From: Methanobrevibacter sp. | GTDB lineage: Archaea > Methanobacteriota > Methanobacteria > Methanobacteriales > Methanobacteriaceae | Reading direction: 5' to 3' | DNA: 64,000 nt | Assembly (NCBI RefSeq): GCF_017468685.1 | Contig: NZ_JAFUHT010000077.1 | Location: 62,001 to 126,000 of the forward strand | Shown: one piece after another, positions 38,941-42,173 of the stretch | Layout: every line of letters starts with the position of its first letter | Position numbering within the stretch: position 1 is the stretch's first letter | The notes under the pieces: model-generated | The model's input: the letters and a program-made list of their open reading frames with translations, nothing else | Database searches by the model: none | Told to the model about the DNA's origin: nothing | Made by a program: the position numbers and the translations under genes

Positions 38941-39420
38941 ATGGCTGATAAAGAAAAAACTATTGAAGCTTTACAAGCAATCGTAACCGGTTTATCTGCA
39001 AATTCATTCGGACACAGGATTCAATCAAAAATATTTGCAGGATTAGGTTTCCAGTCTTTAGGAGACAAATATGCAGCTCATGCTAGTGAAGAAATGGACT
39101 TCGTAGAACAGTTCATGGACCGTATTCTTGATTTAGGTGGAGAAATCAAACAGGAAGCTCAGGAAGCTAAACCAATTTACACCGATATTGTTGAGTTTAT
39201 CGAAGCTGATTACCAAGTATCCGTTGAAGGAATTGCTTTTTTAAATGAATTAATGGATTCCGGAATCTTTGATAATACTACTTATGATTTAATGAAAGTC
39301 TATCTCAAAGATGAGGAAGAAGACATGTATTGGAGCGAACAGCAACTTGATTTATGCAAAATGATTGGAAAACAAAATTACCTCACCCAATTATTAATAA
39401 ATAATCAAACTGTTGAATAA
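38941..39420 (+). CDS. Ferritin-like protein
   Basis: 159 residues, fully helical, the length of ferritin/bacterioferritin/Dps chains. Four-helix pattern with spaced carboxylates and a His: DKYAAHASEEMDFVEQFMDRI carries an HxxEE-like metal motif, with further acid pairs in VEFIEADYQVSVEG and LKDEEEDMYWSEQQ. It probably oxidises and stores iron or detoxifies peroxide. The palindromic promoter suggests tight control. Confidence 0.65.
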   Translation: MADKEKTIEALQAIVTGLSANSFGHRIQSKIFAGLGFQSLGDKYAAHASEEMDFVEQFMDRILDLGGEIKQEAQEAKPIYTDIVEFIEADYQVSVEGIAFLNELMDSGIFDNTTYDLMKVYLKDEEEDMYWSEQQLDLCKMIGKQNYLTQLLINNQTVE

Positions 39421-40246: not shown

Positions 40247-41014
40247 ATGAAAATCTTATACTATACATCAACAGGAAATAACCTTTATATTTCAAAAAGA
40301 TTGGGTGGAGAGCTTTTAAGCATTCCTCAGCTAATTAAAAACGGGATTTATGACATTGAAGATGATATTGTAGGCATTGTTTTTCCCGTATTTTTTGCAA
40401 CTTCTCCTAAAAGCCTAAGGGAATTTATCAAAAAAGTTAAAATTAAAGCAGATTACTTCTTTTTAATAACTTCCTATGGTTCCGATGGCGATCAGAACGC
40501 CTTAAGGATAATGAAGGAAACGTTTGAAAATAGAGGAATTAAAGTTAATTATACCAATTCTGTTTTGATGATTGACAATTTCCTTCCTGTTTTTGATATG
40601 GCTCATGAAAAGGAAATTAAAAAGGATTTGGATGTTGATGGTCAAATTGATGTTATTAAAGATGATATTTTAAATAAAAAAGACTATATTTTTGACAAAA
40701 AGCCTTTCACTGACCAGCCTGACATTGAAGTTTTTTTAGAAACAACAATGACTGAAAAATACCACATTCAGGTTGGTGAGGACTGCAGTTTGTGTAAAAT
40801 CTGCACAAGGGTTTGTCCTAGGGGAAATATCTCCTTTTTAGATGACCGCCCTCAGATTGGTGATAATTGCGACTTCTGTTTAGGTTGTGTGCAGCACTGT
40901 AAAACAAATACATTAACCATTAATGATGAGTTAAATCCTAACGAACGATACAGAAATCCCAATATCAAAATTTCTGAAATCATTAAAAGCAATAATATGA
41001 AAAAAATAGTATAA
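40247..41014 (+). CDS. Flavodoxin-ferredoxin fusion (EFR1 type)
   Basis: 255 residues. The N-terminal flavodoxin-like part begins MKILYYTSTGNNLYISKRL, with an FMN phosphate loop STGN, and ITSYGSDGDQ. The C-terminal quarter has two [4Fe-4S] motifs, CSLCKICTRVCPRGN and CDFCLGCVQHCKTN; the last Pro of the second is replaced by Lys. The family moves electrons between flavin and clusters; partner unknown. A bidirectional terminator follows. Confidence 0.8.
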   Translation: MKILYYTSTGNNLYISKRLGGELLSIPQLIKNGIYDIEDDIVGIVFPVFFATSPKSLREFIKKVKIKADYFFLITSYGSDGDQNALRIMKETFENRGIKVNYTNSVLMIDNFLPVFDMAHEKEIKKDLDVDGQIDVIKDDILNKKDYIFDKKPFTDQPDIEVFLETTMTEKYHIQVGEDCSLCKICTRVCPRGNISFLDDRPQIGDNCDFCLGCVQHCKTNTLTINDELNPNERYRNPNIKISEIIKSNNMKKIV

Positions 41015-41021
41015 TAGTGAT

Positions 41022-41055
41022 AGAATAATGTTATTTTTTAACATTATTCTGATTT
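41022..41055. terminator. Bidirectional hairpin terminator
   Basis: AGAATAATGTTA (41022-41033) and TAACATTATTCT (41039-41050) form a perfect 12-bp stem with a five-T loop between convergent genes. It overlaps the stop codon of the microgene at 41044. Confidence 0.7.
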
Positions 41056-41103
41056 TTCTTCTTCTTTCTGTTTTTCTTTTAGGTTTTCAATTCCTATAAT
41101 CAT
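41044..41103 (-). CDS. Very small protein, 19 residues (microprotein candidate)
   Basis: Minus strand: GGAGGATTAAA directly precedes ATG 41103, which opens MIIGIENLKEKQKEEEKSE before TAA. The strong SD, the TATA element (41169-41179), the operator 41181-41194 and the terminator all belong to it, since no other gene lies on this strand before 41022. The 19-residue peptide is amphipathic at first and then highly charged. It might be a small regulator or a leader peptide. Function unknown. Confidence 0.55.
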   Translation of the reverse strand: MIIGIENLKEKQKEEEKSE

Positions 41104-41168
41104 TTTAATCCTCCATATTTTTAACATGAATAAAACTCAAGTACTCTGTTATTATATTTATTATAATA

Positions 41169-41194
41169 GTATATAAATATTTAGGCATACCTAA
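41169..41194 (-). promoter_or_regulatory. Promoter with a perfect TTAGG-N4-CCTAA inverted repeat
   Basis: On the minus strand TTAGGTATGCCTAA (41194 to 41181) lies directly upstream of ATTTATATACT (41179-41169), a TATA candidate 66 or more bases before ATG 41103. The arms TTAGG / CCTAA are perfect. Related sites: 3823-3836 and 30743-30756. TTAGG half sites are typical of DtxR/IdeR/MntR-type metal repressors; no such regulator gene is in the window. Confidence 0.5.
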
Positions 41195-41219
41195 AAATTC
41201 TATTTTATTAAAAAAATAA

Positions 41220-42173
41220 TTAAATTACATCGAAACCGATTAATTTAATTTGGTTAGAAATTAATTCCGGATTATCATCTACTTTTTCAGACAATTTTGT
41301 AGTAATGTATTTCTTATTATCATCTGCAAAAACAGTAGCGATTTTTAAATCATCACTATCCATCAATACACTTGCTAAAAAGTTAGCACCACTAGAAATG
41401 CCTATTCCCAACCCAAATTCACGTGATATTCTTTTGGACATATTGATTGCATCACAATCATGAATTAAAACTATATCATCAATCAAATCCCTATCGACAA
41501 TACTGGGAATGAAATCATCACCAATTCCCTCAATGAGATGTGATCCCTCATCCATGCCCATTTTTAATATGGATAATGTTGACGGTTCAAGTGCAAATAT
41601 TTTTGAATCAGGATTATTGTCCTTTAATCGTTTACCTATACCCATTAATGTTCCGCCAGTTCCAATTCCTGAAACGAATGCATTAATGTCAGGCACCTTA
41701 TCAAGAATCTCTTTACCGGTTGTGTTATATTGGGCTTGTGTGTTTAAAGGATTGTCAAATTGCAGAGGTCTGAATGCATTGTTTTTAATAGCGAATTCTT
41801 CTGCAAGTTCAAGTGCCTTTTTAAAACCGCCTTCCTCTTTAGATACAAGATGGACATGAGCGCCGTACATTTCAATTAGATTTCTTCTCTCGACAGAAAC
41901 CCAATCAGGCATGAAAATATGCACTTCATGATTTAAAAATGCACCTATTGCACTAAAAGAGATGCCGGTATTTCCGCTAGTCACTTCAACTATTGTTTGG
42001 CCTTCAGCTAAATTGCCATTTTCTTTTTCTTTTTGTAAAATATATAATGCAATCCTATCCTTTATACTTCCAGTATAATTGTAATATTCAAGTTTAGAGT
42101 AAATACTACCTTTCTTTCCATTATATTCATAATTAATCTTAATCATTGGTGTGTTACCAATTAAATTCTGCAT
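41220..42173 (-). CDS. Cysteine synthase / PLP-dependent beta-family enzyme
   Basis: 317 residues. GSIKDR carries the PLP lysine, TSGNTGIS binds the substrate carboxylate, and GIGTGGTLMGIGKRL binds the PLP phosphate; all match CysK/CysM. The C-terminal part is longer than the minimal fold (NPELISNQIKLIGFDVI). ATG 42173 (MQNLIGNTPM) is chosen because GGGGAG lies eight bases upstream; ATG 42179 is only two bases away. It probably makes cysteine from O-acetylserine or O-phosphoserine; the acceptor is not certain. Confidence 0.8.
   Translation of the reverse strand: MQNLIGNTPMIKINYEYNGKKGSIYSKLEYYNYTGSIKDRIALYILQKEKENGNLAEGQTIVEVTSGNTGISFSAIGAFLNHEVHIFMPDWVSVERRNLIEMYGAHVHLVSKEEGGFKKALELAEEFAIKNNAFRPLQFDNPLNTQAQYNTTGKEILDKVPDINAFVSGIGTGGTLMGIGKRLKDNNPDSKIFALEPSTLSILKMGMDEGSHLIEGIGDDFIPSIVDRDLIDDIVLIHDCDAINMSKRISREFGLGIGISSGANFLASVLMDSDDLKIATVFADDNKKYITTKLSEKVDDNPELISNQIKLIGFDVI

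Follow-up and report, generated by a model that had tools for sequence, protein, structure and literature searches.

A 19-codon open reading frame (ORF) on the minus strand of a Methanobrevibacter contig is flanked by a palindrome, a TATA element, a Shine-Dalgarno sequence, and a stem-loop, and it raises the question of whether such a short unit yields a peptide, a regulatory RNA, or neither, and under which signal. The unit lies in a window of 64,000 nucleotides, the whole stretch of DNA that was analyzed (G000:C77:62001-126000), from a draft genome of 2.28 Mb. To our knowledge, proteins below 30 residues are rarely annotated; hence a gene of 19 residues makes an unusually clean study case, which rests here on codon-level selection, a fixed promoter layout, a metal-type operator, and a presence in 39 genomes. 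Methanobrevibacter of the rumen and gut make methane with iron-rich enzymes, and the rationing of iron in these organisms is therefore of practical interest.

The palindrome, TATA element, Shine-Dalgarno sequence, 19-codon ORF, and 12-bp stem that the first-pass annotation had placed on the minus strand were all confirmed base for base (Table 1). The stem-loop at the stop codon probably serves as a 3'-end or stability hairpin and may also be used by the converging plus-strand gene, which encodes an EFR1-family ferredoxin (40247-41014; NF038196), and the transcript probably ends at the run of seven U. The upstream neighbor on the same strand is a cysteine-synthase-like gene (42179-41220, minus strand). 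A sigma-70 promoter and terminator scan of the window did not include the 12-bp stem among its predictions, because it seeks bacterial promoters and G+C-rich stems. Elsewhere in the window, a ferritin-like gene (38941-39420) is repeated almost identically on contig C68 (L178:901-1380), where the repeated copy adjoins a MarR-like regulator gene.

Table 1. Positions of the microprotein unit in the window and of copies of the structured small RNA (sRNA) family
Feature	Position	Strand	Remarks
Operator palindrome TTTAGG-N4-CCTAAA, 16 bp	41180..41195	.	Perfect; proposed DtxR-family half-operator
TTAGG-N4-CCTAA core of the operator palindrome	41181-41194		Perfect
TATA element TTTATATA	41170..41177	-	Begins 17 bp past the operator start
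Shine-Dalgarno GGAGG	41110..41114	-	
Microprotein ORF MIIGIENLKEKQKEEEKSE	41044..41103	-	ATG at 41103; 19 codons plus TAA ending at 41044
Stem-loop AGAATAATGTTA / TAACATTATTCT	41022..41050	-	12 perfect pairs, 5-nt loop; last codon and stop codon inside the stem
Run of 7 U	41000..41006	-	About 16 nt past the hairpin; sequence observed
sRNA copy, own genome	G000:C8:8290-8481	-	
sRNA copy, own genome	G000:C50:12557-12736	+	
sRNA copy, own genome	G000:C75:30059-30246	+	
sRNA copies, further loci	L158, L163, L166, L172		

The microprotein gene and its copies

A blastn search of 61 genomes recovered 20 loci, and 19 of them carried the same ORF with the upstream box, TATA element, and Shine-Dalgarno sequence (at one of these, in genome G023, the box is only partly in view). 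An exact degenerate pattern of the first nine codons had one match per genome in 37 of 150 order genomes, all 37 belonging to the same genus, and the reversed control of this pattern had 0 matches in the 150 genomes. A profile (A1) built from 16 distinct peptides identified a single copy of the peptide per genome in 39 of the 67 genus genomes (E <= 6.9e-6; next best score 0.075), a count that is partly circular since the profile was made from peptides already found; the pattern alone gave 37. Outside the genus, the profile search of 138 family genomes found no peptide, the best E there being 0.0137.

Among the GTDB r220 species genomes, the exact pattern had 47 matches, which comprised 30 in Methanobrevibacter records and 17 in unrelated bacteria. 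A spread outside the genus was rejected on the absence of the box from all 15 bacterial matches checked of the 17 (L095 and L098 were set aside). With L096, L097, and L099 set aside, 27 Methanobrevibacter loci were checked, where 25 had the box, one lacked upstream room, and one was the G017 copy, which has no box within the upstream sequence in view. A phage origin was likewise rejected: the one exact match in IMG/VR was a 13-codon frame without a box and was taken as chance, as were low-scoring internal matches to GIENLKEK in frames of about 270 amino acids. The peptide is also not the N-terminal fragment of a longer gene, as all 39 copies reach a stop at 18-22 codons. With X added to reach 20 residues, two variants of the peptide matched 0 Pfam families at E <= 10, a search with little power at such length. 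Literature searches among open-licence papers brought up no description of the microprotein gene or of the sRNA family discussed below.

The gene was absent from 28 of the 67 genus genomes, including 16 of the 37 good-quality ones, and is therefore dispensable, with the caveat that draft assemblies inflate absence counts. Its presence and absence require 11 changes on a DtxR tree (59 of 60 sequences, with 35 of the 39 peptide genomes represented), which suggests a gene that is old within the genus crown and was either lost many times or exchanged.

Peptide lengths were 18 (two copies), 19 (21 copies), 20 (12 copies), 21 (two copies), and 22 residues (two copies). The consensus is MIIGIENLKEKQKEKEESE, with a near-invariant N-terminus, M-I-I-G-I-E-N-L-K. 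Positions M1, I2, I3, G4, I5, N7, and K9 were invariant among the 16 aligned peptides, and the copy later found in genome G096 has Q at position 7. The C-terminal part is acidic, rich in Lys and Glu, and variable, and the net charge ranges from -4 to 0 in all 39 copies; RNA binding by the peptide is disfavored because of this acidic charge. No Cys or His occurs in any of the 39 copies, which rules out a peptide that binds metal through these residues.

The codons themselves pointed to a protein product. Over codons 2-9 of 38 copies (31 distinct sequences), pS was 0.626 and pN was 0.0128, giving a pN/pS of 0.020; this is a pairwise average that ignores relatedness, so that pairs are not independent, while the contrast is large. 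Third codon positions are free and first and second positions are nearly fixed. For example, Ile2 is encoded by ATT, ATA, or ATC, Ile3 by ATA, ATT, or ATC, and Leu8 by six different codons among the copies. Changes in codons 2-9 are thus almost all silent, which argues strongly for translation of the ORF and for selection on the peptide. Judged by this pattern, the 19-residue microprotein gene is genuine and conserved. The first-pass annotation had proposed that the unit makes a microprotein or a short regulatory RNA, and had staked this on the conservation of the ORF and the box in close relatives. Both are conserved, which supports the proposal, and the balance between silent and amino-acid change favors its microprotein branch over an RNA-only product.

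The promoter layout was preserved as well. The 16-bp palindrome was found upstream of 38 of the 39 copies, in its full 16-bp form in all 38. The distance from the start of TTAGG to the TATA element was 17 bp in 36 of the 38 boxed copies and 28 bp in the other two, and a GAGG-type Shine-Dalgarno sequence preceded 38 of the 39 copies. The distance from the box to the start codon ranged from 59 to 137 nt. At the 3' end, 18 of 38 stop-codon regions folded better than shuffled sequences at z < -2, one of the 39 copies having been dropped at a contig end, and hence about half of the copies are without a significant hairpin. The same threshold was passed by three of the 38 downstream stretches and none of the 38 ORFs that served as controls. 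The fold of the whole transcript was unremarkable (z -1.21), and Rfam covariance models had no match at gathering threshold in the window and none at E <= 1 in positions 40900-41300. By eye, a longer leader with an apparent extra hairpin was seen at L213, L214, L228, L231, L232, L234, L239, L244, and L246; at L239, for example, its arms read AGTGTGAGGTTG...CAACAACCCCACACT.

The operator and a proposed iron regulon

The exact core TTAGGYATRCCTAA occurred at six sites in the genome of the window and at 1-11 sites per genome among the 37 genus genomes searched, this genome included, and its reversed control occurred 0 or 1 times. The TTAGG-N4-CCTAA pattern had 22 sites in the same genome. The surroundings of box sites in this genome and five relatives included FeoB, P-type ATPase, FdhD, ABC transporters, argininosuccinate synthase, argH, and the sRNA units. 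Family membership was confirmed for FeoB, P-type ATPase, FdhD, ABC transporters, argininosuccinate synthase, FeoA, and DtxR, and argH was assigned by reading. The feoB box in the genome of the window is TTAGGTTAACCTAA. Upstream of dtxR, a degenerate TTAGG-N4-CCAAA-type box adjoining the TATA element was found in 52 of the 59 genomes with a readable start (L154, L256-L268, L300-L348), as counted with the loose pattern TTAGG-N4-[CT]C[ACT]AA, and autoregulation of dtxR is probable in the genus.

The DtxR consensus TTAGGTTAGCCTAACCTAA has 19 bp (PMC7762939), and its bases 1-14 are identical to the box TTAGG-N4-CCTAA. As in DtxR/IdeR regulons, feoB and dtxR appear among the boxed genes. Unlike the operators of those regulons, the element described here is a palindrome of 14 or 16 bp with a set spacing to an archaeal TATA element, and its binding by DtxR is predicted. 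In Methanococcus voltae, FeoB and DtxR rise together in cells that apparently sense iron limitation (PMC8516115). The boxes at feoB and dtxR, the fit to the DtxR consensus, and the M. voltae response together make iron and DtxR the best reading of the operator. Iron is favored over manganese as the signal, because boxes of the same type precede feoB and dtxR. We infer that iron is the signal, that its effect is repression, and that DtxR is the binder, and an iron-type regulation of the microprotein gene itself appears moderately well supported. The position of the operator against the TATA element would suit a repressor that excludes TBP/TFB, and an activator at this position would also be possible.

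Two observations lie at the margins of this regulon. TTAGG-N4-CCTAA boxes were seen in several genomes upstream of argG (L153, L159, L170) and adjoining argH (L147, L175), a link of the regulon to arginine synthesis; these are not obvious iron genes, and they call for caution in the iron reading. In dtxR genes from two further families of the order, TTAGGTGAACCTAA overlaps both the first start codon and the ribosome-binding site at eight of nine loci (L247-L254), where it may represent an operator, a coding constraint, or both.

A structured RNA family under the same box

Several boxed units contain no ORF of note and carry a structured RNA instead. These units consist of the box, a TATA element, a second box about 70 bp further on, and a conserved RNA of about 180 nt. 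The TATA element begins 27 bp past the box start in 16 of 17 units, a spacing that is ten bp, or about one helical turn, longer than that of the peptide gene. A covariance model (R1) built from 11 copies matched 62 of the 67 genus genomes, with between 1 and 5 copies per genome. At 30 loci with 34 copies in all, at least one upstream box was present for 33 copies, and two or more for 27. Among these 34 sequences, 6 of 18 base pairs were kept with both sides changed, a count that leans towards structure since the alignment was fitted to the model. For five loci searched against Rfam, no match was found at E <= 0.1. The sRNA often adjoins feoB and occurs in tandem in some genomes; for example, genome G033 has three units in tandem beside feoB. 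The same operator appears to drive an undescribed structured sRNA family, which the first-pass annotation had not noticed. Its unpaired stretches carry CUCC, UCCAC, UGCC, and CUCUCCUC and might base-pair with Shine-Dalgarno sequences.

Four units, at L148:2759, L158:1905, L163:2434, and L061:1674, all on the plus strand, hold a second RNA type (B) whose loops differ. They share almost identical stretches, TTACTACACTCCGATTGTTATTAAATTAG among them, and a stem that closes an ACUCUC loop, and three of them have an intact TTAGG-N4-CCTAA-type box. Viral contigs searched with one exact 25-base sequence returned no copy of type B. On contig C75 (L151:2476-4808), the sRNA copy lies directly upstream of MarR-like, glutathione-peroxidase-like, and thioredoxin-reductase-like genes, all named by reading; the MarR-like regulator had no Pfam hit at 1e-10.

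Proposed mechanism and competing readings

Our preferred reading, to which we assign a probability of roughly 0.7, is that the unit is a free-standing microprotein gene of the iron-starvation regulon, in which DtxR repression is lifted and the peptide docks on a partner. When iron is plentiful, an Fe2+-loaded DtxR-family repressor on the 16-bp palindrome would block TBP/TFB. When iron is low, the promoter would open and give a transcript of about 150 nt with its end close to the stop-codon hairpin, and translation from the strong Shine-Dalgarno sequence would yield the peptide. The near-invariant hydrophobic N-terminus would dock on a cytosolic partner protein, the variable acidic Lys/Glu tail would keep the peptide soluble, and the docked peptide would adjust iron uptake or an iron-using enzyme. 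The product is most likely an iron-starvation-induced microprotein. Counting against this reading are the 28 genus genomes that lack the gene, the G017 copy with no box, the four peptide genomes that gave no DtxR hit, and the boxes at argG and argH. How it acts is a more tentative proposal, and we infer the docking step from the conservation pattern of the N-terminus.

Several other readings were weighed against this one. Instead of DtxR, another factor, such as one of the MarR type, could bind the box, with oxidative or another stress as the signal. Two boxed units lie near MarR-looking genes, with glutathione-peroxidase-like and thioredoxin-reductase-like genes adjoining at C75, and a DtxR hit at 1e-30 is missing from seven of the 67 genus genomes. 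Four of these carry the peptide (G006, G007, G023, and G024, one of which is 99% complete), the other 35 of the 39 peptide genomes having a hit. However, the missing hits may reflect draft assemblies, and the boxed feoB, the box at dtxR in 52 of 59 genomes, and the fit to the DtxR consensus make this reading unlikely, though it is the most probable of the rivals. A lower probability is given to the peptide as an accessory of the sRNA, which would aid its pairing with the mRNAs of iron-rich enzymes or destabilize these mRNAs. The C-rich-loop sRNA family, present in 62 of the 67 genus genomes, stands under the same box, and none of the 39 peptide genomes is without an sRNA copy (Fisher P 0.010, with no correction for phylogeny or completeness). 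A precedent exists in FbpA, FbpB, and FbpC of Bacillus subtilis, which are Fur-regulated, very small, induced by iron starvation, and proposed accessories of the C-rich-loop sRNA FsrA, with which they share a regulon (PMC7430163); the likeness is one of description, the iron response of the peptide being predicted. The Fbp proteins are described as basic and lie under a Fur box, whereas the peptide has 18-22 residues, is archaeal, stands under a DtxR-type box, and is acidic, so that none of the 39 copies shows the basic charge of Fbp-type proteins. In addition, 23 of the 62 sRNA genomes are without the peptide.

It is still less probable that the RNA is the main product, as a small RNA with a dual or a purely regulatory function in which the ORF is secondary. 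The short transcript with its stop-codon hairpin, the non-coding nature of other boxed units in the genome, and the extra leader hairpin seen by eye in several copies would fit such a product. Selection acts on the amino acids, however, as the pN/pS indicates, and the untranslated parts vary in both length and sequence, as seen in the wide range of box-to-start distances; the unremarkable whole-transcript fold and the lack of an Rfam match also count against it. That the unit attenuates a downstream gene or encodes its leader peptide, as a short ORF ahead of a hairpin might suggest, is very improbable and was rejected: the neighboring genes downstream vary in identity and strand between genomes, with a shared setting only in clusters of related genomes and no constant downstream gene, and the unit is therefore free-standing. 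The least probable reading, with a negligible chance, is that of a random ORF beside a random palindrome. About two occurrences of the box pattern with one mismatch are expected by chance per window, and a single site is not improbable by itself; its significance comes from its conservation across genomes. This reading was ruled out by codon-level selection and by an ORF, a box, and a spacing that are all conserved across tens of genomes.

The preferred reading of an iron-regulated microprotein has further parallels. MtrI and MtrR of the methanogen Methanosarcina mazei are, like the peptide, unannotated stress-linked small proteins (< 100 amino acids), and both bind and tune enzyme complexes; they come from a different order than the peptide and are likened to it by description. 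A wider scheme, in which DtxR would control duplicated sRNAs that block Shine-Dalgarno sequences along with a microprotein that serves as an sRNA helper or tunes an enzyme or transporter, would resemble the iron-sparing response of Bacillus. This scheme is possible, with clearly less than an even chance; if true, Archaea would have an iron-responsive module that joins sRNAs to a microprotein. Through the shared regulon, an as yet undescribed sRNA family of archaea comes into view, and sRNA-based iron sparing in archaea becomes directly testable. The family looks like the iron-sparing sRNAs FsrA of Bacillus and IsrR of Staphylococcus in its iron-type box, stem-loops, C-rich single strands, and T-rich end. 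It differs from them in being archaeal, in its 1-5 copies per genome, in the additional box where the transcribed part begins, and in having no Rfam match. The C-rich stretches of FsrA and IsrR bind Shine-Dalgarno regions (PMC7430163, PMC9410917), and duplicates of the ryhB and prrF genes are known (PMC9410917).
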